Part shown: piece by piece, positions 1 to 38,900 of the stretch
How the letters are laid out: each line of letters opens with the position of its first letter
Position numbering within the stretch: the first letter of the stretch is position 1
Virus record (IMG/VR): IMGVR_UViG_3300025141_000191
Location: 1-45,319 of that record
Direction: 5' to 3' (one strand)
Origin: a virus
Length of the DNA: 45,319 bases
The notes under the pieces: model-generated
Seen by the model: only the letters and a program-made list of their open reading frames with translations
Told to the model about the DNA's origin: nothing
Database searches by the model: none
Translations under genes and position numbers: made by a program

Positions 1-461
1 CTATTGCGATATTCTCCGCTGAAGCAAAAGCCGATCTTCCACTTAAGAATATCGGCTTTTGTTATTCCTCGCGAATATAAATACTTTTGTGCATATAACC
101 CTGTTGCTGGGATTTTGTTAGAGCTAAGGCTCACAAACTCTTCCGGAAGATCTATCTTTGTCGTGTCTTTTTCAGGGCCTCGTTCCACAAATAAGTCAGC
201 AAATCTTTCAAGATCTGTCCGGTTCGATATTCCGTCCCATTTCTGTAATTGCAGATAAGTACCAAAACGCCTAATAACACGCCTAATATTGCGACCATGA
301 TAATCACAAATCCAACATTTAAAAACATTCTTATCGATATTAATAGAGAATTTACGTTTGTGATGATTACATGACGGACACCTAAATAGTAATTCACTAC
401 CTTTGTCCGCATAATTTCCAAATGCCTCATAAAGGATCTTCTTTGCTTCTCTTTTGTTCAT
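1..461 (-). CDS. DNA primase, N-terminal part (runs off left edge)
   Basis: The frame opens at ATG 461..459 and stays open to the window edge, so only the first 153 residues are present and no stop is seen. Residues 28-52 form a zinc ribbon, CPSC (Cys28, Cys31) and CWIC (Cys49, Cys52), followed by DYHG and a basic helix. This is the arrangement in the DNA-binding zinc domain of DnaG/T4 gp61-type primases, which make RNA primers for lagging-strand synthesis. The rest looks like the linker into the catalytic TOPRIM region, which would lie outside the window. A GAGGG stretch just upstream of the ATG is a good ribosome binding site. The gene has its own sigma70-like promoter directly upstream, separating it from the structural genes. 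The primase assignment rests on the zinc ribbon and its position; another CHC2-type zinc-ribbon replication protein is possible. A 279-nt open frame overlapping it (152-430) is a shadow. Confidence 0.82.
   Translation of the reverse strand, partial: MNKREAKKILYEAFGNYADKGSELLFRCPSCNHHKRKFSINIDKNVFKCWICDYHGRNIRRVIRRFGTYLQLQKWDGISNRTDLERFADLFVERGPEKDTTKIDLPEEFVSLSSNKIPATGLYAQKYLYSRGITKADILKWKIGFCFSGEYRN
25..61. repeat. Perfect 11-bp inverted repeat inside primase gene
   Basis: CAAAAGCCGAT at 25-35 and ATCGGCTTTTG at 51-61 are exact reverse complements separated by 15 nt. The element lies within the primase frame (about residues 134-146) and could fold into a stem-loop in mRNA or single-stranded DNA. 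The A and T tracts belong to the stem and no long U run follows, so it is not a standard terminator. Function unknown. Confidence 0.7.
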
Positions 462-475
462 GTGCCCTCATAAAG

Positions 476-504
476 AGTTTAACATAAAATCATGCCGTAG
501 TCAA
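476..504 (-). promoter_or_regulatory. sigma70-type extended -10 promoter for primase
   Basis: Reading the minus strand, the -35 box TTGACT (504..499), a 17-bp spacer and the -10 box TAAACT (481..476) are visible. A TGT immediately precedes the -10 box, giving an extended -10 element. Initiation would fall near 470, only about 8-10 nt before the primase ATG at 461, so the leader is very short. It lies directly after the terminator at 505-532, and its architecture matches the promoter at 1135-1163. It is probably used by unmodified host RNA polymerase early in infection. Confidence 0.65.
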
Positions 505-532
505 GAAAAACAGCCCCGGAGGGCTGTTTTAT
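505..532 (-). terminator. Intrinsic (rho-independent) terminator
   Basis: On the minus strand CAGCCC, a TCCG loop and GGGCTG form a GC-rich stem (511-526), extended by flanking A/T pairs and followed by TTTTTC. It starts directly after the stop codon of the 30-aa peptide gene. The T-rich flanks on both sides could make it bidirectional. It ends the FKBP/basic-peptide unit and probably any read-through from the long structural block. Confidence 0.85.
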
Positions 533-624
533 TAACGTCTTTTACGAAGTCTTCTATTGCGACGGCGCTTCGAGCCTAGCTTTCTGCGGCGGCGCGCTTT
601 AGAGTGGGGAGCCTTTCTACTCAT
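532..624 (-). CDS. 30-aa Arg/Lys-rich peptide
   Basis: A short frame opens at ATG 624..622 and stops at TAA 534..532, encoding 30 residues, 13 Arg and 5 Lys, with no acidic residue. It begins MSRKAPHSKARRRRK and ends LRKRR. It overlaps the last 8 nt of the FKBP gene (ATGAGTAG contains its start and the FKBP stop), which suggests translational coupling, and an intrinsic terminator follows immediately. Arg is encoded by several different codons (AGA, CGC, CGT), which argues against a simple nucleotide repeat. Such a peptide would bind nucleic acid or another polyanion; a protamine-like DNA-condensing role or an RNA/ribosome-binding role are possibilities, but no family is recognised. The start codon lies in the 12-bp palindrome at 622-633. 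It is judged real from position, coupling, composition and terminator placement. Confidence 0.68.
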   Translation of the reverse strand: MSRKAPHSKARRRRKLGSKRRRNRRLRKRR

Positions 625-4416: not shown

Positions 4417-5400
4417 TTATTCCTTTTGCGTTATTCGAATTGCAATTTGTTCGGTGATTCCGGTCGATCCCACAATCTTAACTGTGGTGTCTATATAGCT
4501 ATAGGTGCCCGCACAGCCTGCGATAGTTTGGGCTGTTTTGCCATGTCTTTTATAGTCAGCAGTCGACAAAACTTTCACATCAAAATTCAAGGCCGTCACC
4601 GATGCTCGGGGGCCCGCAATTGCTGAAGTGTCCGTGTCAGGAATTTTGTCCATTGTGCGCTTAAAGACATTATTATTAAGTGATTTCACGCGGGCGGCCG
4701 AATGATTACGCAAAATGGAATCTCTAATTGCAGGAAGATTGTTTTTAAGCCTCATTTGAATCTGAGCAGTGCCGGAGCCGCCGTTATTATTGAAATGATC
4801 GCCCGATCGGGGGCCTAATACATTATTTATAAATCGAGTATCCACATAGACATCAAAACTTGATTCTTGGAGACCTTGTGCAACGACGTATGTGCTTTTA
4901 TTGGCTGCAGTTGCTGCCATGGTAGAGTTGTTAAGGCCGGTTTCCAGCAACAGGTGCGTGCCATTCTGCTGGCCGGCTTGTAGAACTTTTCTATCACCGC
5001 CGGATGTAGCTCCCCCAAAGCCGGCAATCAAAGCGTTCGCAGTAGAGCCGTCGTTTACCGCCAAATAATAAATCTTTTTTTGTGGCAACAACGTGTTGGC
5101 TACCTTTCCGTTAATCACCATTTGGGGCATATACAATAAATTAGAATTCGCATATGTTATCAATCCATTATTAATTGAGGAATTCTGGGTAGTCGCCTGC
5201 ATAACCGGAGTCTGCAATATTTTTAAATCGTAATATGCGCTTCCCGAGGCATTGTTTTTATCATATAGCTTGTAATCAATCTCGTCATCACCAAGAGCAA
5301 ACTTAACAATTCTAAAATTACCCGTAGCCATACGTCGGCGGCCGCGCTCCGTAAGAACTGCGTCTAAAATAATATCACCTGAGTTGTCTAATAAAGCCAT
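4417..5400 (-). CDS. Tail fibre-like structural protein, tandem paralogue (327 aa)
   Basis: The N-terminus (residues 10-45) reads IILDAVLTERGRRRMATG then FALGDDEIDY. This recalls the particle-attachment segment of some phage tail fibres, in which LT..G...la precedes a KxALGDG motif, although the similarity is by eye. The neighbouring 364-aa product has the same segment, and both share a C-terminal domain beginning GPR.SV.ALN (263 onward here) with YIDTT. The middle is Asn/Gly-rich and differs. The gene follows a 76-nt gap with a possible promoter and a perfect palindrome, so it may have extra expression control. Attachment of a fibre or decoration protein to the baseplate is inferred, not shown. 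Confidence 0.7.
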   Translation of the reverse strand: MALLDNSGDIILDAVLTERGRRRMATGNFRIVKFALGDDEIDYKLYDKNNASGSAYYDLKILQTPVMQATTQNSSINNGLITYANSNLLYMPQMVINGKVANTLLPQKKIYYLAVNDGSTANALIAGFGGATSGGDRKVLQAGQQNGTHLLLETGLNNSTMAATAANKSTYVVAQGLQESSFDVYVDTRFINNVLGPRSGDHFNNNGGSGTAQIQMRLKNNLPAIRDSILRNHSAARVKSLNNNVFKRTMDKIPDTDTSAIAGPRASVTALNFDVKVLSTADYKRHGKTAQTIAGCAGTYSYIDTTVKIVGSTGITEQIAIRITQKE

Positions 5401-17957: not shown

Positions 17958-20900
17958 TTATCCTTTTTTTGGTTTCTTGAGGAGTATATCCACGTCCATT
18001 TTAATTAGCTCTACGAACGATAAATAATCATAAGGCCAGTTATAGGCAATATCGTATTCTCGCTTTTGCTCCGGAGCAATATTGGTTATCTGAGTTGTGG
18101 CGCCACCGATCTGATCTGGTACCAAATCGTAATAATCAGTCTTAGCTCTCTGTTTGACTTTAAATACCATCCAACGCAAGTCTGAATTGTTGAGAACCTT
18201 TGCATTTATAAGTTCGTTATTTCCTAAATTATGATTAATAGAGCTATGTTGGAAACTTAATTTTCTGTAGTCTCTGGGTGCCAGATTTTGCCAAATATAA
18301 GATAAATCGTCTCTATCAAACTCATATTTAAATTCAAAAACATACATAGCCACAGGATCAACATTGGGGTTATTTACAAAATCAAATTGAGGTGGAAATA
18401 CATAATTTTCTATCGCTTGTCGCAACTTGCGAATTGAGGCGCCGGCAACTGATAACGAATCGCCCTCTCGTGTACCAATTTTATCTTTCATTGCGGCACG
18501 GAAGCGCTTCTTAGGAATAGAAATGAACTTCTTTTGCTTAAATCGGTAGGGTGACCCTATGCTGGCGGATGCCTCTCCGACTGTCCTGTGTGTTCCAATA
18601 TAGGGAATCGCCACGATTGCCTCTTTTACAACCATTTTTTCTTTCAATTCTCCTAATCTTGCGGAAGAGTTATCCCTTTCAAATCCACATAAAGTAGATA
18701 AAGATTTAACATGGCGATGAAGCCCCACACCATTGGCCGTTGCGCTCTTATCATAATTATTGTATACGCTATCTTCCAAAAGAACCTTATAGTGCGTTTT
18801 GAGCCATTGCTGGGGGATATCTCCAATCTCCATAAACACTCCGACCTCCGGTTGGTGGGGAATCGTGCCGAATTGGTGCCACATGCCTCGAGGAACAGAG
18901 GCAGATCCATAGATGGGAAGCGTGTAAGTTCCGCTAGCTTCACTAATTCCACGGAGGCCCTTGTCTGTGAAGTTTAGCATCGGGGTTTCCCATTTGGGCT
19001 TAATAATCCACTTTTTGCCCACTGATTTGTTTGTGTTAGATATGACATTCCCAAATTTGTCTGTTTTTTGCTCCAGGACTCTTTCTACACCGAACATGTT
19101 TAAGCACCCCGATACTTGCATGGAATTCACATTGATCCTAAATCCATCGTAAACCGAAGGGATAGTTTTATCCCCAAGGGGTGTGGCGCCCTGGAAATTG
19201 ATCTGAGACGCACTGAAGACTGGGATTAGCGTTGGCATCTTTGAGTCGGCGACTGCAGGGGCTGGTGTTGGGAAGCCAGCATCAAATCTCCAATAATAAG
19301 TCTTCGTCTCAGCTAACACTCTCTCAAGATCGTAAGGAATACTGGCGCTGGGTCTAAAAACTAAATCCACCCACGCTTCGCCGTTTTGATATGGTGGCGT
19401 GAAGGCTGGGTTGTGGCCATTAAAGCTATCTCGTGCGGCCCTATTCCACAGGTTGGATGCAGCTATAGAGCCAGTCGGGCGCCCGGCGCAGGATGGACCA
19501 AAAGCAGTCGGACGAGAGTACATGGTAAAGGTCTCTTTGAAGACGGTACTTCTTTGCGGGTCTTGAGGAATGGGATAACTATTCTGTGCTTTTGTGCCTT
19601 GGTTCGTAGTCGTTCTCGCTCCATGTTGGGTATAATAGGAATCATTACCAGTAGTACCAAAAGAATCATATTCTTCAGTATACAGTCTCTTTCCGTTGTG
19701 TGACCTTCGAAGTTTAACTCTGGCCATATATACTTCGCCTTTAGAGAACTTCAATTCATCCGTAACTGTTTTTGATTTAAGTTCGGTAAGTGTTGAACCT
19801 CGCAAGAAAAATTCTCCAGAAGCTCCAAAAAAGTTGCGGGCCATTTTCGTATAGACTCCATCACTCATGTTATCTATGGAGGCTGAGGGGGGATCTACTT
19901 TTTGGCCGGCCGGCGTTACAGCTTTGGCAAAGCTAAATTCTGTGTTTGACTCATTGTCAATAAACGAAAGTTGTGCCATATACTTTTGAGGCTCAATGAT
20001 CGTTTCAAATGGAAGCCTTACATCCCAGAAGCTACCACCAGAGAACCCAACATCGGCCGCAGTTGCTCTGGAGCCTGTTATTCCCAAGGCGTATGCGTAT
20101 GGGAGGGTCCCGGAGGCCGCGGCGCCACAACCATACTGTTTGCGCAATATCTTTGTGCCATCTAAGACAACCGGGTAATCGACCGCTAATCCCGACTTAA
20201 TTGAATTGTAAAGGATTCCGGGCGAGAACAGGGGATTAGTAAGAGGCTTGAGCATACCACCCACACTATTGAAAACATTCTTTCCATAATAATTCGAATT
20301 AATGTTTTTGATGGCAATGCTTTTTTGGAAAGATTTGGCCCATTGTTCCACCAACTGGACTGTTCTCTGGGCGGGGTAGAATCCCTTATATGGGTTGTAT
20401 TTAATGGCAGCGCTGCAGTTTAGTCGTATCTCTTTTGCGTTCAAAATAGTGGCAGCCTTGATTCCTAAAAACCCTTCCAAGAAGTCTGTGTTTGAAAAGT
20501 CTTTATAGAAATTCTTCTGAGAACTGCTATATTGTGTCCCGGGAATGCTAAATGTGTCAAATTTGGTTCTGTTGGCGATTCCATATTTCAGATAATCTTC
20601 CGCATTATCGCTAATTCTAAATTCCGGTATCACTGCATAACCGCGGGCTTTAAGTTTGATATCGGCAACATACGCATCATAATCGTTGAACCACGGATTT
20701 GAGCCAGACGGAGAAAAAACGGGCCTCTTGTTGACTACGTTAATGATTCCCGCTTGTGAGCCGGCTTCCCATTTGGCTTCGCCAGCCAAAGTCTTTACTT
20801 GGAGGCTACTGTTGAACGGGTTGCCTCCGATCGCTGATAATTGTCCACCATACCAACCACATGGTGCCTCGGGGCCTTGTGGAGAAGTCACCGAATACGG

Positions 20901-23900
20901 TGATCCTAAATCATGCTTGCGAGCGTAGAGGGCGCCCGGATACATGTTTTGGCCAGTTGAATTGTTTCCGGGCGCAGTAATATAGGCAAAGTAAGTGTTC
21001 TGAAGCTCGCCAGCTTTGGTATCATCCTTGTTGAAGTTGGCATTACTGGTGATGATGGAGGATCTTGTGAGAAAGTTTACTGGAGCATCCAGAACCCAGC
21101 TGCTCTGTTTGACATTAATTCCAAATGAGTTGTTAAACGTATCCCCAACTGTAATCCGATCGGTCAGCTTGTTTCGCCAAAATAAGTTATCATACCCATT
21201 TCTGCGCGCAGATCGAGATACCGCCTCATTGCGCATTGATGGAAAAATGTTCTGAGTGTACATAATCCAATTAAGTGTTGTGTTGCGACGAACAGAATTT
21301 TGAACTAACATACCCAATGGGGAATAAGAGTTTAAGGGGGAGAGTTTTGTTAGGTTATTCAATTCTGCACTATTGAAAAATATGCGCTGGTTAGTGTAGG
21401 TTATCTTGTATGTGGTTGGATAGCGACTTACACCAGTCGTCTGTGATGGTCTTCGGTGGGTCATATGGACCACCGAGGGGCGACCCTTAAAGGAAACCGG
21501 AGGCAAATCATACGTGGCTATTGGAGACTCTGGGCCGGCCATCGTGCTTATTTTGTTCGTTCGCTGTTCATTAATTAGAATTGGATGATCTGCTTGTCTG
21601 GTTCTGTTCCATGTCCATGAGTAGGTAGCACCACGTTTTGTAAGCAAGTTGTTTAGATAAAATGGCTTTTTGGCGGTGGGTACTGATGATATTAGCGTAG
21701 TGTTAAAGTACTTATTGTTGTTTTTGCCGGATCTTCCGGGATATCCCACAGTGTTGGTGGAGGCCGAAATCGGCTCATCTATAACCAAGTTTATGCGTCC
21801 GATTGGCTGATAGTATTTGTTGATCGTGGTTTGAGAGCGACTTACAAAATTAAAGAAGGGGATGAGGTTCGGTGTCACTGTTCGATACGGCATCAAATCA
21901 TAGTGTCGATTCTTTTGAAATCCGGAATAGCGCATATCGCTTGGGTCTTTGAGTGCTCGGTCAATCCACATGTATTGACGTGAGGCACGAGGGATTTGGT
22001 GTTGTACATATGCATTATCGTACACCATTTCGGTGACTGAACTATCTGTCAGGCTGGGGCGCTCTTTATTGTTTCGATGAATTTTGTGGAACCCGGGGAG
22101 CTGATCGTAGCTGGCTCCGGGACCGAAAATAGTATCTGTCTTAGATGCGTCATAAAGCGCTTGAGCCTCTTTCGACTCTAAAATTGAATTCCAAACTGCA
22201 ACATCGGCAAGTTGTCCTTCCCATGTTCTGTCGTCATTGTGGTTGTTGCCTATGTAGGCTTGTTGAGTAACGATGCCGTAATACGCGCCGGTAGCAGTAC
22301 CGGAGGCTAGTGAGGACACCACCTTTACCCCATTCACATAGAATACGGGCAGATTAGCAGAATCATTCGCATCATAAGCAACCATTATATGGGCCCATGT
22401 GTTTAAAGAAATTGCATTAATACCAGTTTTCCATCGAACCGTATTATTGCCGTTCCATTTTGCTTGGAAATTAACTGCATAGTCTGAATCTATTCTAAAG
22501 CTAATGTCTCCGGAGCCAAAATCAATAATTCGACCATTGCCCCCTTCGCCGGGGCCCGTGGGGTAAACCCATGCAGCAAACGTCATTTTTTGTGTTGAAC
22601 CGGATGCCGTATCATTTCCAATAATTGCATCCCAAGTTGCGGCAGAACCTATAACAGAGCGGTCGTTGGAGCCATCAAATGTACAGCTTCCAAGTTGAAT
22701 CATTTCGCTCGGATACAAAATACTACTGAAGCCCGGGCGATCTGAGGCCGCTGCGAAAGTGCCGTCGCGACCGTTCCCGCTGCTGTCTATCGCGTCTCCG
22801 CTTGCTGACATATTCGTGTTAAGACGCCACCACCCTTGTAAATATGGGGCGGAACGATAAATTTTAGCCTCCTCATATCCAACAAAAGGGTGCGTCAGGT
22901 TGTATGTCACCCTGTTCGCGTTCGACGGGAACGCTCTTGAGTCGCGGCCGAAACGAGCAGTATGGCGCGCCCAATGAGGAGACAGGCCATAATCTTTTCC
23001 ATGAATATCGAATATTCGCGAAGTAGATAGGGTCCCGCCTACCTTCTCTGAGATAGTGTAAGCCGGGGCTTGCCAAGGGCGCAGAACATTCAAATTGCGA
23101 TATGTGACACAGTTATAGGGGGAAAATTCGGACGCTCGGAAATCTAAGTATCCCACGGTCATTGTCTCTATTCCGCCGGGAGCAGAAAATCTATTTGTAA
23201 TGATTGTGTCGTTAGTGGTGTTGCTTAGGTAACTGGTATCATACTCATCTATAAACTTGAAGTGCTTCTCGGAAGTGCGTCGGCTGTCTAACAGTGTTCT
23301 TACATTTGTTGTGTGCCTAACTGTTGTCAATACACTAGGCAACACTGGCTGCTGTTCTATAAACTGGCGGGGGTTTGCAGAGGCACCAAAAGAGTGTAAA
23401 ACTTCATAATTATATCGATAGTTCCCCAGAGTTGTCTTGTTCGCAGAATTTAGAATGTTAATATTGCGAATATTAACGGGTCTCTTTGTCGTAAGATCGC
23501 GATACATGTTAGCTTTTTGATAGGGGGCGTAAGGGTATCCTCTTTCTCCCTTGGCGACCTTTAACCAAGAAGGGGGGTAGTCGGGCCCAACCATACCAAT
23601 AGCGCCTGGAATGCCGCTTGGGTGGTTGTTATTCGCGGTGCCGAGAAGAATGCGCCATGCTTCAGGCCTGTTTTTGGGCGAATCAGCACCATCGTTGAGA
23701 GGCACATGTCGCGATTGGAGACCTCCAACAACGGCATCTGTATAGGGGCCTTGCATTGGAACTTCCATTAGCTGTCCATATACGTCATTGTGCAGGTTCG
23801 TTAATTCAATTCCCATTTTGGTTCGCTGCTGGACATTCTTGTTATATCCAGTATCACAAGATGAACTAAAGATACTAAAGGGAAACCCCATGGTGGTCTT

Positions 23901-26900
23901 AACGTTTGAGTATCCCAAAGAATCTTCCCAGTCGCGGCCGTGCTGGATCTTTAAGACTCTTCTTTCCTTCTTCATTTGCTTTTTGGCCTCAGTCTCCTTG
24001 AGTCCCTTGGCTGGCTTAAAGTTGGTTACTTCCACAGCATCGGCCTTAAAAGCAACTAAAACATTTTCAGGAACGAACTTGCCACCAGCAGTATTTACGG
24101 GGCCGGCTGGACGCAAGGCATTCAAAGTATAATGAATATCCTTAGATGGCTGGAAATTTGAACCACCGTGGATTGCTTCTGGGCGCTTCACACTAAAGGG
24201 GGCCTCTCCCACAATACGGTGGTTTTTTGGCTTCAAGCGATTAAGCTTGTTGTAGTCATAGGTGGTACCGTCTATAAGACTCACCTTGAGTGGGCGCTTT
24301 GATGAGGAATAATGTGGCGCCGAGTTAACCACATCTCTAAATTTATTACGCTGGGCGTCTACTATCGCGTCCCCGGAAGAAATCTCTTTATCACTTCGAT
24401 TGGCTCGTTCAAACCAGTAAGCTACATTTTTATTGGTGGGGCGCGGGGAATCCGGAGTGGGCGATAGCAAATCTGCCGCAGATTCGATCCAAGATTCGTG
24501 ACCAACCATAACTGCTTCTGGTTCTGGCTTTTCATCATAAATAATCTTAAGTCGAGATTGGTACTTGTTTCTCTCTAATACATGACTTTCGACCAAGTTC
24601 ATCACATCGGGAACAAACTCTGCTGAAGCTGGCACCAATTGTGAAATTATTTCACTAATGGCGCTGTCGAACCATTTATAATAAGAAATATATTTTTCAA
24701 TTTCGGTAACCTTTGTTACTCTTTGGAAAAATGCATTGCGCAGCTTCTCCATTTCTTTATACTGCATTCTATATCGATTAACTGGGGCGCCGATCAGCGT
24801 GTGAAAGTCGGTTACTCCAGCCAAGAAATCTAACATTTCCTCAGAAATGGCATTGTAGATGCTTTTCTCAATGGAATATACATAATTGGGAACTATTTCT
24901 TCACGCCTTAAATTGGGAAACAGTACATCTTCATTAGAAAATGTCTGAATCATGTCCGAAGAAACTGCTTGTTCGGGATCTATAAATCTATAGGTATTTA
25001 TATCCTTTCTAATAACTGCTTTGTCGGATAAGGCACTAAATCCGGCGGCGCGGCCTGGATGCTTGTATCCTGTAATTCGGCCGGCCCAACCATAGTTGGA
25101 ACGATTTCGCACAGAACCGGAAGAAAAGTCTTGAACTTTAAATGTGCCGGCACCATTAGAGGAAGTTACATTGCCAAAATTCCAATCAAGTGCCAGAGTG
25201 TTTCGATTTAGAATATCTTGATTAAGAGTGCCACTAAGAGTGTCGGATCCGAGTCGACTCAGGGGCGAAATTGGGCTCATAGAACCAGAAATACCTGCAT
25301 TCTCAAAATCCAAAGCATGCTGTCTTAAATCTTCCGTTTCGAGATACCGGGTCCAAAATCTGAGTGATGACACTAACATATCACTTCGATGTTGAATTTC
25401 TCCAGTAACATTCTTTCTTTTTGCACCCACAAATAATCTCTTCCATGCACCAATGAGTTTTTGACCAACCGATGCATCGAGCGCCTGTTTCACTGAGAAT
25501 GTGTTGAAAGTCTCTTGAGTTATGGGATTTATCCCAGCAAAAACTAAGTCATACTTGGAGCCGGAAGTAAGTCGAGTAGCAAGCGGATAGGTTTGAGGTT
25601 TTACGCGCACGGATAAGTTCCACGGAGAGTTGTTATATACTTCCGGAAACACACTCGTTGTGAGGTTTAAGGTAACACCGGGTATGGACGACGACAATCT
25701 AAAATAGGCGTCTCGGGAGCCGGCTTTTGGTCTGACAACCTGTACGTTAAAGTTGGCATAATCTGCTGCAGCTGCCACATTGTTTAGGTTATCGCCGCGT
25801 ACTGCACCTGCGTTTTTATGATCAACTGTGACAGAGCCAAAAATTGAACATTGATTAAAGTTTGGAGTACGAACAAAAATGGTGTGTTCATTGTTATAAT
25901 ATGGAAAAATGACATTAGCTTCACAAGTAAAACCATACGGCCTCTGGAGAGAATTGCCGGGGATGGCTCCCACAGAATCGGTTTCGGTAGATAGGGCCTT
26001 CTGGTATATAACGGCCCGGGCGTGCTCTCTCACATTAAAGTTGGCGCACTTGTCTCGAAGCCTGTTAAGTTGTAAGTTGTTCTTAAGAACAAACTCTTCA
26101 TTGTTGGAATTTATGGTTAAGCGTAATAGCTTATCATCGACGTTGAAGCAGCGGAAAACATTCCTGATAGATCGTTCGGTACCTTTGCTCTTAAAAATAT
26201 CAGTTAAGTTATTGTAAAGATTGATATAAATTAAATTCTTGGTGTTATGTAAATCATTCTCAAAAAGCCTGTCGTTATTACGATTTAAGAACCTCTCCAT
26301 AACGGTTGCATCAATAAATATTTCTGGAGAATATAGGCCCAGCGATTGTGGCAAGTGTTTAGCAAAAGTTATGGGAGTAGCAGAAGCACTCGGATAACTC
26401 AATTGTCTTAACTTTGGAAGTTCCGCAATTTGTAGATATAACTTGTCGAAATATGCGCCCATAATATGAGAAATATACATTAAATCTGTGTTTTGTGTTT
26501 CGCCATATTGATCGAGAACCCATCCGGGAACTAGCGAGACTAAGGATGCGTTATTCCCATAGTCATACGACGAGCCCGTGGTCTCTAGATCTTTACCCAA
26601 ACTGAGCACTTTCGGGTGGTTAGGGTGGATAATTGGATCTTTATATTCTTTTATGGCTGCGTTACTGAGCACCATCGCCGAGCCTGTATTTCTAGAATCG
26701 CTCGAATATCCTTTCCACACCCCATTAGTTACTCGACCAGCATAATCCAAGACAATTCGATCGGTTGCCGTTTGGCCTGTAATTCCTTCGTTAAATTTAT
26801 AGTAGACGCCCAAGGTAGTGTTGGACGTGTCGCTATTTACTCCGCCGCGAACTTGACTAAACCATTTCTGCCCTATTTGCTTGGGCGTTCTTGCGGTTTT

Positions 26901-28766
26901 CCAATATCGAAATTCATCTATAGAACCGCTTAACTTGCCGGCGCCGGCTGACGCTACGGAGCCCGAGGGGGATGTGATGAGAGCACCAATTCTTGCCATG
27001 GCTCCCTTAGAGTTGAGTTGGGTTATCTTCGTATAGGTTTTATTGTATTTGGAGGCATAGTATATCGCCTTGATTTCATCAGCAGTGAGAATCTTATTCC
27101 AAATAGCAATATCAGCAAGGTTGCCCTCCCAAGCAGCATCTGCAGTCTGCTTGTTTCCTATATAACAATCACTGGCAGTAATCCCTCTCCAATCGCCTGT
27201 TGGGGTTGTGTCTTCCGTGATAGATTGCGCAATTCCATTAATATATAACACAGGATCGCTGCCCGGCGCCGAACCACCACCGCTATAACTAACTGCAACA
27301 TGTATCCATTCATTTAATGTAATAGTTGAGGTGGCAGTATGCCACCTTCCATTAGAGCCGCCGTCCCAATGGGTACGAAAATATAAGCGATTAGTATTGG
27401 ACGTGTAAAATTGGATTGCGCCGGTACCACCAAATTGTACGATACGGCCTTTGTCGCTGTCTCCGCCATGGCCAGTCTTGTAAATCCATGCCGAAATCGT
27501 CATTTGTGAAGTTCCGCCGGGTGCATTACCAATAATCGTATTCCAGTATTCGTGATCGCCAACATCGACTCCGTCGACTGCATCTCCACCAAATGTGTTA
27601 GAGTTTGCTTGAATATAGGATGTGGGAGTGGATACTGGTGAGGGGTAGCCCGGGCGAGCAGTGGCGGAATCAAACTTTCCAGTAACGCCCTTTCCGCTAG
27701 AGTCTGCACATTCTCCAGTACTGGAAACGTCAGTGTTTAATTTCCACCATCCTTGAAGATTATTGGCAGATGAATACTCATACGAAGCGGTCGTTGCTCT
27801 GAAGCTCGACGAAAGAGAGTATTTATTCCACGCATGCGCGTCGTTCTCTATTCCGTTAACATATAGTTTGGCGCCCAGAACACTTCCCGTGTTCAGCATT
27901 CGAATTGCATAGTGATTCCATGAGCCCGTGGAGGCTTGTAGTGCTGCTTTTCCTATGTTAATTGTATTCTTGTTAGTGACGGAGCCGGATTGTACCGTTA
28001 ACAAAAACGGCCGATCCTCGCCAGACGCCGTCATTTCAACCGTCAGGCGCCCATATTTAGCGCTAGACACTGCTTCGTTATTCCACCAATCAAAGATTAC
28101 TTGCTTGTGTGTCTTAGATCGCGGTAGATATCCTTTTTTAAGCCAAAATTCAATTGTTGTTCCATTATCAAAATTAGCCCGAAGATTTGAAGTACGTGTG
28201 CCTTTTCCATAAGTAGGCGGCAGGTTGCTGCTTTTATATGGATCTTCTTCGTAAACGTTTGAATCAGAGCGCTTATCGCTATATGCATTGGGCAACAAAC
28301 TCTTAAGTGAGAGATCTGTTGCACTTCCCGTGCCGGGGCCGCCCTTAAATTGAATATACTCTTGCGTGGTGGGGATACCATACCCATCGGTGCGGCCGCT
28401 AGTGGTATATGTGCCGGGAGAAATGGTTCCATAACCATTGGTCCGCGGATACCGACTGTCTAAGATATATTGCTCAATGTCCAAGCAGCCATTAAAAAAC
28501 TTATTTATCTCCGCATCTGAACCATCATATGGATAATAATCCAATATTCGACTCATTGCCGACTTGTAATATAAGCGAGCGGACCCAAATTTAGCAAAAT
28601 TTTCTGGATTGGAATAATCTACTTGCGGAACATACTGCTGCTGTCTCTTTTCGATTTGTTGCGCATTTGCAGCTGACTCAACCTCGTCAAAAGCCTCTTG
28701 TTGGGTTGTGTTACTTACATAATTTTCAGTTTTATTGCTAGCTTCAAATAGCTTTTTAATGCTCAT
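17958..28766 (-). CDS. Giant baseplate protein (3602 aa): gpI-like segment and LamG domains
   Basis: This is the longest gene in the window (10.8 kb). Residues about 198-318 and 588-636 form one LamG/concanavalin-like domain split by a second complete LamG (about 336-575). Residues about 750-870 look like the P2 gpI/T4 gp7-type wedge segment: ITFAKHLPQSLGLYSPEI and, near 850-868, LYNNLTDIFKSKGTERSIRN with the KGT..SIR motif. A concanavalin-like stretch may lie near 1045-1150. A third LamG (about 1975-2210) is paralogous to the nested one (LQGWW..NT at both starts, WEG.LAD.A.WN.IL at both ends). The C-terminal 1400 residues are unassigned. As in P2, where I follows W and J, it comes after gp25- and J-like genes. 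It probably bridges the baseplate core and the periphery; LamG domains may bind glycans on the host surface. Its start overlaps the upstream gene by 11 nt. Confidence 0.85.
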   Translation of the reverse strand: MSIKKLFEASNKTENYVSNTTQQEAFDEVESAANAQQIEKRQQQYVPQVDYSNPENFAKFGSARLYYKSAMSRILDYYPYDGSDAEINKFFNGCLDIEQYILDSRYPRTNGYGTISPGTYTTSGRTDGYGIPTTQEYIQFKGGPGTGSATDLSLKSLLPNAYSDKRSDSNVYEEDPYKSSNLPPTYGKGTRTSNLRANFDNGTTIEFWLKKGYLPRSKTHKQVIFDWWNNEAVSSAKYGRLTVEMTASGEDRPFLLTVQSGSVTNKNTINIGKAALQASTGSWNHYAIRMLNTGSVLGAKLYVNGIENDAHAWNKYSLSSSFRATTASYEYSSANNLQGWWKLNTDVSSTGECADSSGKGVTGKFDSATARPGYPSPVSTPTSYIQANSNTFGGDAVDGVDVGDHEYWNTIIGNAPGGTSQMTISAWIYKTGHGGDSDKGRIVQFGGTGAIQFYTSNTNRLYFRTHWDGGSNGRWHTATSTITLNEWIHVAVSYSGGGSAPGSDPVLYINGIAQSITEDTTPTGDWRGITASDCYIGNKQTADAAWEGNLADIAIWNKILTADEIKAIYYASKYNKTYTKITQLNSKGAMARIGALITSPSGSVASAGAGKLSGSIDEFRYWKTARTPKQIGQKWFSQVRGGVNSDTSNTTLGVYYKFNEGITGQTATDRIVLDYAGRVTNGVWKGYSSDSRNTGSAMVLSNAAIKEYKDPIIHPNHPKVLSLGKDLETTGSSYDYGNNASLVSLVPGWVLDQYGETQNTDLMYISHIMGAYFDKLYLQIAELPKLRQLSYPSASATPITFAKHLPQSLGLYSPEIFIDATVMERFLNRNNDRLFENDLHNTKNLIYINLYNNLTDIFKSKGTERSIRNVFRCFNVDDKLLRLTINSNNEEFVLKNNLQLNRLRDKCANFNVREHARAVIYQKALSTETDSVGAIPGNSLQRPYGFTCEANVIFPYYNNEHTIFVRTPNFNQCSIFGSVTVDHKNAGAVRGDNLNNVAAAADYANFNVQVVRPKAGSRDAYFRLSSSIPGVTLNLTTSVFPEVYNNSPWNLSVRVKPQTYPLATRLTSGSKYDLVFAGINPITQETFNTFSVKQALDASVGQKLIGAWKRLFVGAKRKNVTGEIQHRSDMLVSSLRFWTRYLETEDLRQHALDFENAGISGSMSPISPLSRLGSDTLSGTLNQDILNRNTLALDWNFGNVTSSNGAGTFKVQDFSSGSVRNRSNYGWAGRITGYKHPGRAAGFSALSDKAVIRKDINTYRFIDPEQAVSSDMIQTFSNEDVLFPNLRREEIVPNYVYSIEKSIYNAISEEMLDFLAGVTDFHTLIGAPVNRYRMQYKEMEKLRNAFFQRVTKVTEIEKYISYYKWFDSAISEIISQLVPASAEFVPDVMNLVESHVLERNKYQSRLKIIYDEKPEPEAVMVGHESWIESAADLLSPTPDSPRPTNKNVAYWFERANRSDKEISSGDAIVDAQRNKFRDVVNSAPHYSSSKRPLKVSLIDGTTYDYNKLNRLKPKNHRIVGEAPFSVKRPEAIHGGSNFQPSKDIHYTLNALRPAGPVNTAGGKFVPENVLVAFKADAVEVTNFKPAKGLKETEAKKQMKKERRVLKIQHGRDWEDSLGYSNVKTTMGFPFSIFSSSCDTGYNKNVQQRTKMGIELTNLHNDVYGQLMEVPMQGPYTDAVVGGLQSRHVPLNDGADSPKNRPEAWRILLGTANNNHPSGIPGAIGMVGPDYPPSWLKVAKGERGYPYAPYQKANMYRDLTTKRPVNIRNINILNSANKTTLGNYRYNYEVLHSFGASANPRQFIEQQPVLPSVLTTVRHTTNVRTLLDSRRTSEKHFKFIDEYDTSYLSNTTNDTIITNRFSAPGGIETMTVGYLDFRASEFSPYNCVTYRNLNVLRPWQAPAYTISEKVGGTLSTSRIFDIHGKDYGLSPHWARHTARFGRDSRAFPSNANRVTYNLTHPFVGYEEAKIYRSAPYLQGWWRLNTNMSASGDAIDSSGNGRDGTFAAASDRPGFSSILYPSEMIQLGSCTFDGSNDRSVIGSAATWDAIIGNDTASGSTQKMTFAAWVYPTGPGEGGNGRIIDFGSGDISFRIDSDYAVNFQAKWNGNNTVRWKTGINAISLNTWAHIMVAYDANDSANLPVFYVNGVKVVSSLASGTATGAYYGIVTQQAYIGNNHNDDRTWEGQLADVAVWNSILESKEAQALYDASKTDTIFGPGASYDQLPGFHKIHRNNKERPSLTDSSVTEMVYDNAYVQHQIPRASRQYMWIDRALKDPSDMRYSGFQKNRHYDLMPYRTVTPNLIPFFNFVSRSQTTINKYYQPIGRINLVIDEPISASTNTVGYPGRSGKNNNKYFNTTLISSVPTAKKPFYLNNLLTKRGATYSWTWNRTRQADHPILINEQRTNKISTMAGPESPIATYDLPPVSFKGRPSVVHMTHRRPSQTTGVSRYPTTYKITYTNQRIFFNSAELNNLTKLSPLNSYSPLGMLVQNSVRRNTTLNWIMYTQNIFPSMRNEAVSRSARRNGYDNLFWRNKLTDRITVGDTFNNSFGINVKQSSWVLDAPVNFLTRSSIITSNANFNKDDTKAGELQNTYFAYITAPGNNSTGQNMYPGALYARKHDLGSPYSVTSPQGPEAPCGWYGGQLSAIGGNPFNSSLQVKTLAGEAKWEAGSQAGIINVVNKRPVFSPSGSNPWFNDYDAYVADIKLKARGYAVIPEFRISDNAEDYLKYGIANRTKFDTFSIPGTQYSSSQKNFYKDFSNTDFLEGFLGIKAATILNAKEIRLNCSAAIKYNPYKGFYPAQRTVQLVEQWAKSFQKSIAIKNINSNYYGKNVFNSVGGMLKPLTNPLFSPGILYNSIKSGLAVDYPVVLDGTKILRKQYGCGAAASGTLPYAYALGITGSRATAADVGFSGGSFWDVRLPFETIIEPQKYMAQLSFIDNESNTEFSFAKAVTPAGQKVDPPSASIDNMSDGVYTKMARNFFGASGEFFLRGSTLTELKSKTVTDELKFSKGEVYMARVKLRRSHNGKRLYTEEYDSFGTTGNDSYYTQHGARTTTNQGTKAQNSYPIPQDPQRSTVFKETFTMYSRPTAFGPSCAGRPTGSIAASNLWNRAARDSFNGHNPAFTPPYQNGEAWVDLVFRPSASIPYDLERVLAETKTYYWRFDAGFPTPAPAVADSKMPTLIPVFSASQINFQGATPLGDKTIPSVYDGFRINVNSMQVSGCLNMFGVERVLEQKTDKFGNVISNTNKSVGKKWIIKPKWETPMLNFTDKGLRGISEASGTYTLPIYGSASVPRGMWHQFGTIPHQPEVGVFMEIGDIPQQWLKTHYKVLLEDSVYNNYDKSATANGVGLHRHVKSLSTLCGFERDNSSARLGELKEKMVVKEAIVAIPYIGTHRTVGEASASIGSPYRFKQKKFISIPKKRFRAAMKDKIGTREGDSLSVAGASIRKLRQAIENYVFPPQFDFVNNPNVDPVAMYVFEFKYEFDRDDLSYIWQNLAPRDYRKLSFQHSSINHNLGNNELINAKVLNNSDLRWMVFKVKQRAKTDYYDLVPDQIGGATTQITNIAPEQKREYDIAYNWPYDYLSFVELIKMDVDILLKKPKKG
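22139..22844 (-). other. LamG cassette 2 (residues about 1975-2210 of the 3602-aa protein)
   Basis: The cassette begins LQGWWRLNTN, has DSSGNGRDGTF and WAHIMVAYD, and ends TWEGQLADVAVWNSILESK. It interrupts a sequence that appears continuous on either side (YEEAKIYRSA before, FGPGASYDQLPGFHKIHRN after). It is the paralogue of the cassette at 27042-27761. Confidence 0.75.
27042..27761 (-). other. LamG cassette 1, nested in another LamG (residues about 336-575)
   Basis: The cassette begins LQGWWKLNTD, has DSSGKGVTGKF and WIHVAVSYSG, and ends AWEGNLADIAIWNKILTAD. The outer LamG has its WNHYAIRMLN..LYVNGIE strands before it (residues 283-307) and its closing SGSIDEFRYWKTARTPKQI strands (613-631) after it. 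Confidence 0.75.
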
Positions 28767-32955: not shown

Positions 32956-35900
32956 TTAATCACGCTTTGGGCACATCTTGCCGTTGGCATCATATGGATT
33001 ATCGCGGATCTTACGCTTTTGCCACCATGGCATTAACCCGGCAGCAGGACTTGGCATCATGCGTGCCTTGAGGTTTCGGAGCCAAATTGTTACCGGGTTG
33101 TCTCCCTTATCGAGCAAATCATCTCCGGGACGATAATCGCGTGAGTTATAATAAGTTCTAAAAAGTCTCTTGATGCGGGAGCGGCAGTTTCTCAACAATA
33201 TGCGATCCCAATTATCCCACTCAACAACAAAGAGACCGATGCCCTTGGAATCTTGACGATCACTATAGTGGGTCCAGCCTTCATTGCCCGAAACTCCTGA
33301 CTCATCTTTGTCAATCTTGGTAAATAACACTTTGATTGGGTCGTCACTGCCGCCGTTAAACATGTTATATAGCCACCCTCCTCCATCGGGAGGATCGTAA
33401 GTTTCCTCCCACACATCTTTTTTAATGAAGGCAAAGCTCCCGGGTTTCGCTTCAATAGCGGGACAGCGGATGGAGGTCCCGGGGTCGCCCGGGCCGTAGT
33501 TGTTGGGTTCGCCATTGTTTGACGTGCTTCCGAGCCAATCGTTCCGGGCGCCCTCATCCGCATACATGAGGCCCGGAACAAAAGAATATATACCATCGGT
33601 CATACTGCCCAAGAAGCCGCCGCCGGCCTTGACTTTTAAGGCCGTGTCATAATCGCCCTTTCCAACAGTAACTTCTCCAACCGAAGAAAGAAAGGCCATA
33701 TCGTTATACATTGCTAGCGTGGCCGTCACCTTTTTATAGGGGAATATGTAGCTCGTCATCAGCCTATATTGGGGATTCTGTTTAAGATTTTGTAAGAGGC
33801 AGTGAAGCAGCTTGCTGTTTGCTTCTAATTTTCGGAATTGTGCTACCTTAAGATCCAATGCGTCAATTTCCACAGAAGCAATCTCGGTCTTTCCACTATA
33901 TGTGTAATAAAAGTTGAGACCGTACCTTATCGGCATTTCTCCCCTAAAACCAACCATCTGGGGCTCAAGGCCATAGCCCTCATCGGTAGAGTAGATGGGC
34001 TCTACGCTTGAGGGGAACGCCTCAGTTAGTGTTAGATCGGAAGGCTTTGACTGAATTTGTTGTATGGCGAGATCTTGAGAAAATTTGTTACCATTGATAC
34101 TGATGTATTTCTCGATTGCAAACGGTTTTGAAGCGCCGCCGTCACTAGGTGCATCCCCTAGATCCGGGACGTCTCCGATCGGAATAGGGGTTTTCTCGGT
34201 AGTGGGTGAAGGAGCGCCCGTGGCGGAATCAAGGAGAGCATTTTGATAATTGGTAACCACCTCCACTGTGCTAACTTGTACAAGCTCTGCAACTGGTGTT
34301 AGTAAGTCTTGTACGACCTCTTCTGATTGGAATTCGCCGGCCACATATATCACATCTCCTGCTTCGTCAGTTTCTCCATGATAATATCCCACATATTCAT
34401 CTCCGCGCTCAAATCCATTTTCGGGATCTAGATCTTCATAAACCCTAAAGACGCCTCCGGATGTATAATAGGGCCCGGGCCATTCCGCACCGGTGGCCTC
34501 GGGATCGGGTGTATCTGGCGTCGGAAGACCACTTGGAACTTCTATGATGTTTGGGCCCAAAAATTTAAGTGAACTTCCGCCGCACTTATGTTGAAAGATG
34601 TAATAATCTAAGTCAAATATTTCTGGATTAAATCCTTCGGCTCTCATATTCATTACCATCTTTTCGCCCATAATGGTAAGCTCTCGATTAATTAATTTCT
34701 GAAGTAATAATTTTGCATGCTCTTCCACGGACTGCACCGCTTCGAGGCTCTTGGATTCTCTGTATCCCTCAAGAGTTTGAAACCAGCCCGCATCTCCCGC
34801 TTTTTTGGCTGCCCAAAGTCCTGGAATATTTTGCGTAACAGTCTCTCCGTCGCTATTCCTGAAAGTTCTCGATTCGTCTGTCATTCCCGGATGAGCGTAA
34901 TCGGTTTGAAGGTTATTAATTGCATCAAAAGCCCCCTGCAGGTGGCCTCCGGGAGGCGGGGTGGGCATCTCTCCGGCCTGCACCAGAAAGTTATAGCATT
35001 CAACGGATTGTTCCAGAAATGCGTACCAGAACTCATCATCTTTAAACACATTAAATGTTTCCCAGAGAGCCATCTGAACATCCCTAAAATCTTCTTCCAT
35101 TCTTTCCAAAATGTAGGCTGCGTAAATTGTGCTAAAATTTTCCGGGAATCTAGGCATGATCGCGGAAAAAGTTCCCATAGCCTTGAAAAAGTGAGTCGCA
35201 GCATAAACCCGAATAGATGCGAGAATCAACCCATACATAGATGTTTTAGCGGAGCGCGGCAAAATTCTTGAGAAGGGCACTTCACGAATGCATGTCAAAT
35301 CTTCGCCGAGGCGCGGATCCTCGGACATTGTGGGATAGACTCGATCCATAAACTCTTTTATCTCATCAAAATTAATAAGATCGGTTGTGTGTGGCTTACA
35401 CGGTGTTGTGTTGGGGAAGAACACGTTAATGAATCCCATCCAGCCATCATATTTAATAGGCTTCACATAAAGAGGGGGGCTTGTATAACGGCCGCCAAAC
35501 TTGGAAGGATCTAGATAGATAACCCGCGCGTCTTCTGGTTGGTCGCGCTCGGTGGCCAAAAATTGATCATAACTTATGCCCAAAATCATATCTTCGTTGG
35601 TAATACTGCGTGAGGCACCATCGGGGGTCTCTAGACCAAGATGTGGGCCGGCGGCTGCATATGCAATAAATTCGCCGTCAATATCAACACCGTATTCGAG
35701 ATCCGACGGCCGAAGCCAATCGTAGTCTGCGCCATATTTCCAGCCGGCTCGAAGTTTCCACTCGTCATTGGAGTCCTTGCCTCCGATTCGTGCACAAAAA
35801 TCTTTATAAAGTTCCGTCACCATGGTGTCGTAATCCGTCTTTAAGGCGGCGTCGGCAGTGGCGCCCAGCATGTCAGCTAAGAGATAAATTTGGGGCATAT

Positions 35901-38900
35901 ACGTTTTTGGTTCATCCATACAACTCGAAAATTGAGGATAATTAGCGCCATTTAGTCCTGTGTCATCTGGGTTCGGGAATTGATATATTCCTTGTCTTCT
36001 GACGGGGGATTGGTGAAATACGTCCAGAGTATCATCCACAGCTAAAAACTCGAATTCCCTACTTCTCAATATGTTGGGATCGTCGGAGTCCGAGTTGTCC
36101 GCGCATGCATTATTGACCACTTTTTGTTTCGAGTCCGTAAACCAGCCAGCAACAAGATTTACCAGTGCTTGGAGGGCCCACCCAACTACAGGAACCATTT
36201 CAATCCAGTTTGGAAGATCAACAATGTCTGCCTTCTCAAATTCATCACCGACATGCTCAGACAGAGGGCTGGCATAATCACAATCGAGATTGATTTTCTC
36301 TACGATTTGGACCCTCATGTTATCATCGAATCTATTAACCCATTTCTTTTTGTCTTCGTTGTATCCATAATCTGAAAAATAACAGCAAAGATCAAACCCA
36401 TAACTCCACCCGAAGGGTTCATATGCATTGCCGTCCGACGTGATAATATCGGCCATATCGTCGCCCATATTACTTCCTCTGCCACACCCTTTTCGTTGTC
36501 CTGCTGCGTTGTCTCGGAAATCAAGGGCAATGTCGGCGCCTTCTTTTTGATATTCACCGGCGCTACCGTCATATCGCCCCTTGCGCGGTTGGCGTGTGAC
36601 AAAAACGGCGCCTTTGCCATCCTCCCAATTCGGGTTTTCATATTCGGTGTCTGCGCGCAATTTGGTATTATAGCCGAAATCGGGAATACGAACCAAGTCC
36701 ACCCCTCCAGCCATTGCGCTAAAATCCATAGCCTTAAAGGTAACTGCAAATGTGGCGGCTCCCTCCATTTCATTATGGGAGTCAAATACTAAATTATTAG
36801 AAAGATCTGTTCCTCCTTGATTGGCGACGGAGCCTCCGCTCTCCATTCCCGGCGCACGGATTCGCTGATCACCCATGTCGCCGGCATTCATAAACTGCCT
36901 CATAAGCCACTCACCAACATAGTAAGGGAATTGGCCTTGCTGCTTCTGGAATCCCTTCTCGCGCTGAGCAAAGGACCAAAAGCCGGTTGCCGGCTGGCCG
37001 CCATTCTTTTCATTGGCGGCAAAATCCACGTACGACTTCATGTTAAAGCTCTTTCGGTGGTGGTTAGTGAGGGGGTTGCCCATAGTATCCGAAAGGACCA
37101 TGTTCATAAAGCCCCATGATTCATCGCCCGTTAGAAAGCCTCCGTTGCCCATCATATCCTTTCCATATTCTATCTTAAGGATATCCATATCACCACCTCT
37201 GACTGAACTAGCAACGGCCACCTGCGGGGGGCCCTCATATGGAATAAGTCCGTCGTCGCAGCCCGGCTGGCCTACAATATCTGGCATAAACTGTCGAGCG
37301 TACTGTTCTAATCCTTGTTCACTTAAGTTGGCGAGGTCTTCTAGGTCTTCCATCATCTCATCTCGCATATCGCAAAACATTTGATGACATTCTTCCTCTG
37401 TTGCTCTCCCGGCCAGCATACTGCATCGTAATGCCTTGAAGTTCTCAATCTGTTGAGGGGTTGCACAAAGACTTGGGTTTGCCGGCATTTCTGGGCCCCC
37501 TTCGGTCACAATCTCCCCCATAACTTCGCGGTATTCCATCGGCATTAAGTTACCAATATTAGCAAAAAAGCGAGAGATGGTTGACTTATTCGGGAGACTG
37601 GGTCTAAATTGCGGATATTCGTATGTGAGAATCTGTTCTGTGATCTCAATGAAATCGTCACTTGGGTTGCCTAAGAAGGCATTCACCAATTCTTCTCTAG
37701 TCACGGCCGCGGATAGATCTGCTCCGAATTGCATCGTTGTCTCAGGGTTGGCCATTGCCTCTGCCCCAAGGCCAAGCTGGGCCATAATGTCTTGAATCGT
37801 CAAGGCAACCTGCTCATCATCGGCGTCAGGGCCACAAATTGAATCCTTGATAATCTCTTTAAACTGTCTTCCATCGTTGGTGGCAATTGATTTGCCTATG
37901 TCGCCGGCGATACCAACGGCACTACAGAGCGCGTTTCCTAAAATTTCACAAATCTTTACCATAAGGTTAATCAACACTATGGCTATGATCTGTTTAATAA
38001 GAAATTTTACAGCGTCCCAGATTCCTTTGGTAATATCAGCCCAGCTGGAAAACCACTCGAAAGGGTTTTCCATGTGGATCCATTTGATTTCTTTCAAATT
38101 TCGACAAAATGGAAGACCAATTGATTTGATAAAATCATCAATGCCCGGGTTAAAAAGAGGGGGCATGGGACAATCAAGAAGCGCGATGATGGAGCCTACG
38201 ATCTCGGCGCCCGGGAACTTATTAAGCTCGTCCAATAAGGCCATAAAGTTCTCGCTATAAACTTCTAAGATGGCGCCCACGTATAAGTGTAGAATATCAT
38301 TAGCCGGCGGGTCTTGGGGAGTGGCACCGGGACCTAAATCATTTTGGGGCATTATGGTTCTATCTTCCTGAACTCCCCCTCCTCCGACTTGGTTGTTTGG
38401 GGTTAAGCCTGGGCCGCCTTGACCTTGATCTCGTTGCGATTTAGACCATGGCATAGCGCTGTAAACATCACCCGGCGCTTTTACGAACAATCCCCATGGC
38501 ATAAACTTGCCCTCATACTCGGTTCCTGGTTTGCCCGTGAAAGAATATTTGGTGGCGCCCCAAGCGGCATTAGCGGCTGGTCGCACTACTTCGGCGCCAC
38601 CGGTGCCATAGAATGGAGAGTCAGCCTCTCCCATCCCCCAGTCATCACTTTCCACCGCTGCGGCAACCTTATCTTCGATCTCTTTTCTCTTCTCTGGTGG
38701 CAGATTGTCCAAGAGGCTTGATAAGTTTTCAAGATTCATATTCTCTAGAGCACTTTTAACCAAGGTTCTCATGGCATCTTGGAAGTTCATCCCCTTCAAG
38801 AGACACTCAATAGCGCCGTTGAGAAGATCTAATAATCCACACCATTTAAGTCTTTGAAAGCCAAATTCCCACAAATCTCCCATGCGCTGCATAGCGGGGC

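Follow-up and report, generated by a model that had tools for sequence, protein, structure and literature searches.

A conserved arginine-rich microprotein of about 30 residues at different loci of uncultivated phages, with a possible role in RNA or ribosome binding

The window, which is the whole analysed stretch of 45,319 nt from the virus record IMGVR_UViG_3300025141_000191, carried a short basic frame on its minus strand, between the genes for an FKBP-type peptidyl-prolyl isomerase and a DnaG-type primase (Table 1). The product, MSRKAPHSKARRRRKLGSKRRRNRRLRKRR, contained 13 arginine and 5 lysine residues (18 of 30 basic) and no aspartate or glutamate. Its ATG lay inside ATGAGTAG, giving an 8-nt overlap (617–624) with the FKBP stop, and a terminator-like hairpin began 1–2 nt past the TAA. 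The first-pass annotation was thus borne out in what it had said of the composition, of the overlap and of a terminator following directly. The hairpin had an energy of −16 to −20 kcal/mol, which no shuffle equalled (z −5 to −7). It was missed by a simple terminator scan of the window, apparently since the stem takes up most of the U run, and it was absent at the orthologous locus of a related contig, L018. The promoter-like site upstream of FKBP had the same hexamers and spacing in L018, and sites similar to that of the primase unit were present upstream of the primase in L001–L003. With an extended sigma-70-like site before FKBP, another before the primase and the hairpin after the peptide, the genes for FKBP and the peptide resemble, in the window, a two-gene unit that has a promoter and a terminator of its own. 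A Shine-Dalgarno sequence at good spacing was absent before the peptide start in the window, and its translation is probably coupled to that of FKBP, whose gene overlaps it from upstream.

Table 1. Features of the peptide locus in the window.
Feature	Position	Strand	Basis
Basic microprotein gene, 30 aa, MSRKAPHSKARRRRKLGSKRRRNRRLRKRR	532–624	−	Stop TAA 532–534; frame, orthologue, profile
FKBP-type peptidyl-prolyl isomerase, 160 aa	617–1099	−	Pfam FKBP_C, E 4.4e-23
Intrinsic-terminator-like hairpin	507–530	−	10-bp stem, 4-nt loop, U-rich 3' side
Sigma-70-type promoter-like site TTGACA-17-TATCTT, upstream of FKBP	1135–1163	−	Promoter scan
Promoter-like site TTGACT-17-TAAACT for the primase unit	476–504	−	Promoter scan
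DnaG-type primase, N-terminal part, runs off the window	3–461	−	PHROG_47 DNA primase, E 3.7e-14
RuvC-like Holliday junction resolvase	1449–2015	−	PHROG_159/827, E ~1e-9

Elsewhere on the minus strand of the window, two ORFs of 3602 aa (17958–28766) and 2459 aa (32956–40335) probably encode virion or tail proteins. Within the primase gene, a +1 frame (152–430, minus strand) was open for about 100 codons, as it was in about 28 primase relatives (e.g., L011–L037), the median being 101 open codons against 66 expected from synonymous codon shuffles. Its product would contain a membrane-like segment (VGFVIIxVAxLGVLLGVLV). As the single-sequence p values were mostly 0.05–0.15 and the frame was closed in more distant relatives, we take it as no more than a hint that a gene overlaps here. 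Many related FKBP genes (L012, L013, L014, L016, L018, L019, L020 and L024) had a conserved extension of about 40 aa at the C-terminus (MKKAELLEVAKxxGLxVNTRTTKAQIIxAL) resembling an SAP/HeH-type domain, which the FKBP of the window lacked. A GIY-YIG homing endonuclease-like ORF of 210 aa (CGIYMIRNKKNNKVYIGSSNDI...RRW) was located between FKBP and primase in L040/L041 (-583..50), where it overlapped the primase start; a similar ORF preceded the primase in L044. Other very lysine-rich stretches, with a net basic count as high as 24 of 30, occurred in open frames after the primase in L060, L061, L062 and L090; they looked like low-complexity repeats and did not share the motif of the peptide family described below.

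The coding nature of the frame was evident from L018 (IMG/VR contig 3300030419_006925, also contained in our set as L091/L102/L111), in which the orthologue MSRKAPHSKARRRRKLGSKRRRNRRLRKKK was found at 4880–4972, again between FKBP and primase. The two peptides were identical in 28 of 30 residues, the differences being two R-to-K exchanges in the last two residues, while the genes shared only 63 of 93 bases (68% nucleotide identity). Nineteen codons were synonymously changed, including swaps between AGA and CGN that need two changes, and the Nei–Gojobori method gave a pS of 0.92 versus a pN of 0.14. The neighbouring proteins were 51% (FKBP), 63% (TM), 68% (primase) and 80% (RuvC) identical. Recent transfer as the cause of the peptide identity was excluded, since the synonymous sites were saturated. 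Saturated synonymous sites together with retained amino acids indicate purifying selection on the amino-acid sequence, and pN was lower than pS in 317 of the 319 pairs compared across the wider family. The frame is a true gene under strong purifying selection and is missing from the family libraries; the first-pass annotation had considered it short enough to escape gene callers. What the peptide does, we infer.

Two other readings of the frame were weighed against these data. A chance open frame without function would fit its shortness and the missing well-spaced Shine-Dalgarno in the window; the saturated synonymous change at 28/30 identity, and 28 further homologous genes, mostly with good Shine-Dalgarno sites, are against it, and the comparison with L018 and the family leave it practically no credibility. 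Alternatively, the many arginine codons right before the hairpin could suggest a codon-dependent leader, acting by arginine attenuation or ribosome stalling before the terminator. However, AGA and CGN swap freely in the orthologue with the amino acids kept, and the hairpin is missing in L018. Selection thus acts on the peptide rather than on its codons, and a leader, largely refuted, is very improbable.

The family was delineated with protein, pattern and profile searches. With the peptide as protein query against the whole records of 37 related phages, matches were obtained in G005 (70% identity, E 3e-6) and G013 (66%, E 2e-4), at unrelated loci, and neither phage had the peptide beside FKBP. 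Degenerate DNA scans of IMG/VR, with patterns built from the peptides found, retrieved 2, 12 and 26 contigs. Protein and pattern searches together yielded 28 different IMG/VR contigs beyond the window, or about 29 uncultivated phage sequences overall. The members were about 29–33 aa long, all started with Met-Ser, nearly all had a K/R-rich tail, and the consensus was MS[RYF][KR]xPH[RS]KFRRRRK[LMV]GSx[KR]Rx[NK]R[RK]..KKK. The search patterns themselves fixed columns K9, R11–14, K15 and a few more, whose constancy is therefore no proof of invariance. Residues that a pattern did not require agreed nonetheless: hits of pattern B had the Met-Ser start and nearly all had H7 and F10, and hits of pattern A had G17, S18 and R21. 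The family as defined here has a length of 29–33 aa, the motif MS[RYFH][KR]xP..K.[RS]RRRK.GS..R and a single copy per phage, and the peptide conforms to this definition. In a profile search of 13 carrier records including the window, each had one strong match over a background of E about 0.02–1, and one record had an additional, very weak partial match. The window peptide, itself part of the profile, matched with E 2.8e-13, and family members scored 74–79 bits versus at most 35 for their own shuffles. Most copies outside the FKBP setting were preceded by good Shine-Dalgarno sites such as AAAGGAGA.

Relatives outside these phage sequences were not detected in Pfam, NCBIfam, PHROGs, PADLOC or PDB (stray matches with E > 1 only), and the motif KFRRRRK was not found in the literature searched. 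A pattern scan of cellular genome contigs returned chance frames only. A cellular origin found no support in 398 Pseudomonadota and 299 Bacillota genomes either, where the profile matched weakly twice, both times inside long frames, and no plausible homologue was seen; the true hosts may lie outside these phyla. A tblastn search against INPHARED gave no match, the basic query probably having been masked as low complexity. Whole-record profile searches of five GenBank phage records (two cultured, three metagenomic) were negative, and in a DNA search of cultured phages only the tRNA matched. Judged by its sequences, the family is a previously unlisted group of phage microproteins found at different loci across phages.

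The genes around the copies, judged by eye save for some that were searched, fell into four settings. In setting A (L108, L115, L119 and L122–L137), a gp32-like single-stranded DNA-binding protein, a RecA-like recombinase, small genes and often a tRNA-Leu(UAA) were followed by the peptide and a 5'-3' exonuclease. In setting B (L109/L117, L112, L113, L114, L120 and L121), the peptide preceded a cytidylyltransferase-like gene, with tmRNA or tRNA in the region. In setting C (L116 and L118), it followed a SpoU methylase and lay 5–6 nt before a tRNA-Gln. Setting D, the order FKBP-peptide-primase, was that of the window and L018. Most members adjoined replication, nucleotidyl-transfer or tRNA genes. 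The first-pass annotation had proposed a partnership with FKBP, to be checked by searching related phages for a short basic frame beside that gene. When relatives with FKBP next to the primase were searched, only L018 had the peptide, and at least 12 such loci did not. The pairing is thus not conserved, the proposed partnership was not supported, and the association with FKBP is incidental.

A tRNA gene lay within 40 nt of 13 of the 28 copies, versus 8 of 197 other ORFs (>=100 aa) at the same loci; the loci are partly related and the counts hence not independent, although settings A and C are separate. The spacing was 14–24 nt after tRNA-Leu in the former and 5–6 nt before tRNA-Gln in the latter. 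A tmRNA with the tag ANNN(L/N)HFEQRLAA was located near the peptide gene in L109 (1762–2097), L112, L113 and L120. Ribosomal protein bS21 (PF01165) exceeded the Pfam cut-off in 19 of 41 records of these phages and their relatives, including the peptide carriers G013, G055 and G056; further bS21 genes were present in G007, G020, G023, G036, G037 and others. tRNA genes are frequently inserted in phages. Given such insertions, and the relatedness of many among the 13 loci, the adjacency could be hitchhiking.

Known small basic proteins were compared as control sequences with the family profile, each being scored against its own shuffles. The profile scores of bL34, bL35, bL36, bS22, bTHX, bL37, eL41, bS21, bL20, bL32, bL33, bS20 and protamine were all within those of the shuffles. 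By eye, bS21 had seemed promising. Phage bS21 and the peptide are both small basic proteins of uncultivated phages and occur together in G013, G055 and G056; phage-encoded bS21 has been described before (PMC6375957, Mizuno et al. 2019; PMC9723584, Chen et al. 2022). However, a set of 18 bS21 tails, of which 17 came from the present phages or their relatives, behaved like shuffles (median p 0.31). Whereas bS21 has about 65–80 aa and a defined Pfam profile, the peptide has 29–33 aa, PF01165 did not match it in the window, and no family member matched in Pfam. As far as tested, the two are unrelated in sequence, and their coexistence in one phage argues that the peptide is not a truncated replacement.

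The protein bS22 has about 30 residues, nearly all of them basic, and binds the small ribosomal subunit. It resembles the peptide in size and strong basicity. An actinobacterial bS22, used as positive control, strongly matched NCBIfam NF047430 and Pfam PF08213 (AURKAIP1-COX24 C-terminal domain), whereas the phage peptides matched neither above the cut-off, and bS22 scored within its shuffles against the family profile (p 0.13). Likewise, bTHX, bL37, eL41 and bL34 are very basic, short and devoid of a globular core, like the peptide, but none exceeded its own shuffles and no PDB chain matched the profile. In these profile, shuffle and library searches, no sequence relation of the peptide to known ribosomal proteins was detected.

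The first-pass annotation had suggested a DNA-condensing or an RNA- or ribosome-binding peptide. A protamine-like condensing agent packaged in the virion would account for the 18 basic residues and the lack of acidic ones, and protamines (salmine type, baculovirus p6.9) are likewise arginine-rich, non-acidic and short. They lack, however, the fixed P-H-x-K-F...GS motif, and a generic condensing agent would not need the conserved non-basic residues (P6, H7, F10, G17 and S18). A salmine-like protamine scored no better than its own shuffles. The settings of the peptide were not structural: in the roughly 3 kb around the copies read, none of the genes was recognised as encoding a head or packaging function. 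Many close relatives in which the neighbouring genes are similar also lack the peptide. We consider this half of the suggestion improbable, while a role at nucleic acids or the ribosome stands as the best guess.

An arginine-rich RNA-binding regulator of a phage transcript, either an antiterminator of the lambda N type or an autoregulatory binder, would suit the arginine-rich helix-like segment. Lambda N was also the best of 16 control proteins relative to its own shuffles (p 0.004, about 0.06 when corrected for 16 tests). Yet the peptide has no N-like C-terminal region, 30 aa leave no space for a part binding NusA or RNA polymerase, no Rfam match was found near the peptide gene in the window, and the settings differ widely. 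Such a regulator seems unlikely to us, if somewhat less so than a protamine.

The genomic neighbours gp32, RecA, 5'-3' exonuclease, primase and RuvC equally suggest a role at DNA. The peptide might be a DNA-binding accessory of phage replication or recombination, coating or bridging DNA, or aiding gp32, RecA and the exonuclease, or the primase and RuvC. Most peptide loci were indeed of the gp32-RecA-...-peptide-5'-3' exonuclease type, and the copies of the window and L018 sit between RuvC/FKBP and primase. In contrast, the cultured phages Microcystis phage Mel-JY01 and Flavobacterium immuto have the same cluster with the exonuclease directly after RecA and no peptide, and other members are located away from replication genes, near a cytidylyltransferase, a SpoU methylase or tRNAs. 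In view of the nearby replication genes, we give this alternative a minor share of our confidence.

A predicted model of the peptide consisted of an extended arm and a helix (residues 9–29) with a mean pLDDT of 88, which carries low weight for a basic chain of 30 aa. An arm and an arginine-rich helix, in which P, H, F, G and S stand constant among the basic residues, suggest that the peptide contacts a nucleic acid specifically and does not simply neutralise charge. The closeness of its gene to those for tRNAs, SpoU methylase, tmRNA and bS21 shifts the balance towards RNA or the ribosome. As the most likely reading we hypothesize, with roughly even confidence for and against, that the family is a virus-specific RNA- or ribosome-binding microprotein. 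Residues 1–8 would form a short extended arm with the conserved P-H motif, followed by a helical arginine-rich region (K9-F-RRRRK-(L/M/V)-GS-xxR...). The peptide would bind structured RNA, our best guess being ribosomal RNA, as small ribosomal proteins without a globular core do, and once bound may tune ribosomes or RNA in favour of phage translation during infection. A narrower version, which we regard as doubtful though conceivable, is a phage-only ribosomal protein of 30 aa that has no cellular counterpart and would enter host ribosomes during infection, acting together with bS21 and the phage tRNAs to favour phage translation. There are precedents for phage proteins at the ribosome. Phage bS21, whose expression comes late in infection (PMC9723584), is incorporated into ribosomes (PMC6375957), and the 50S subunit is bound by the phage protein PhiKZ014 (PMC10914614).

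The novelty lies in a family absent from the searched libraries, since phage-encoded small proteins related to translation are already known. It illustrates that very short, strongly conserved phage genes escape libraries and standard searches through length limits and low-complexity filtering. A clear motif is now available to find more such genes, and the length of the peptide allows direct synthesis and testing. If the peptide proved to bind ribosomes, phages would have a component for taking over translation that does not descend from a known host ribosomal protein; proof of a virus-only ribosomal protein would make the family categorically new.
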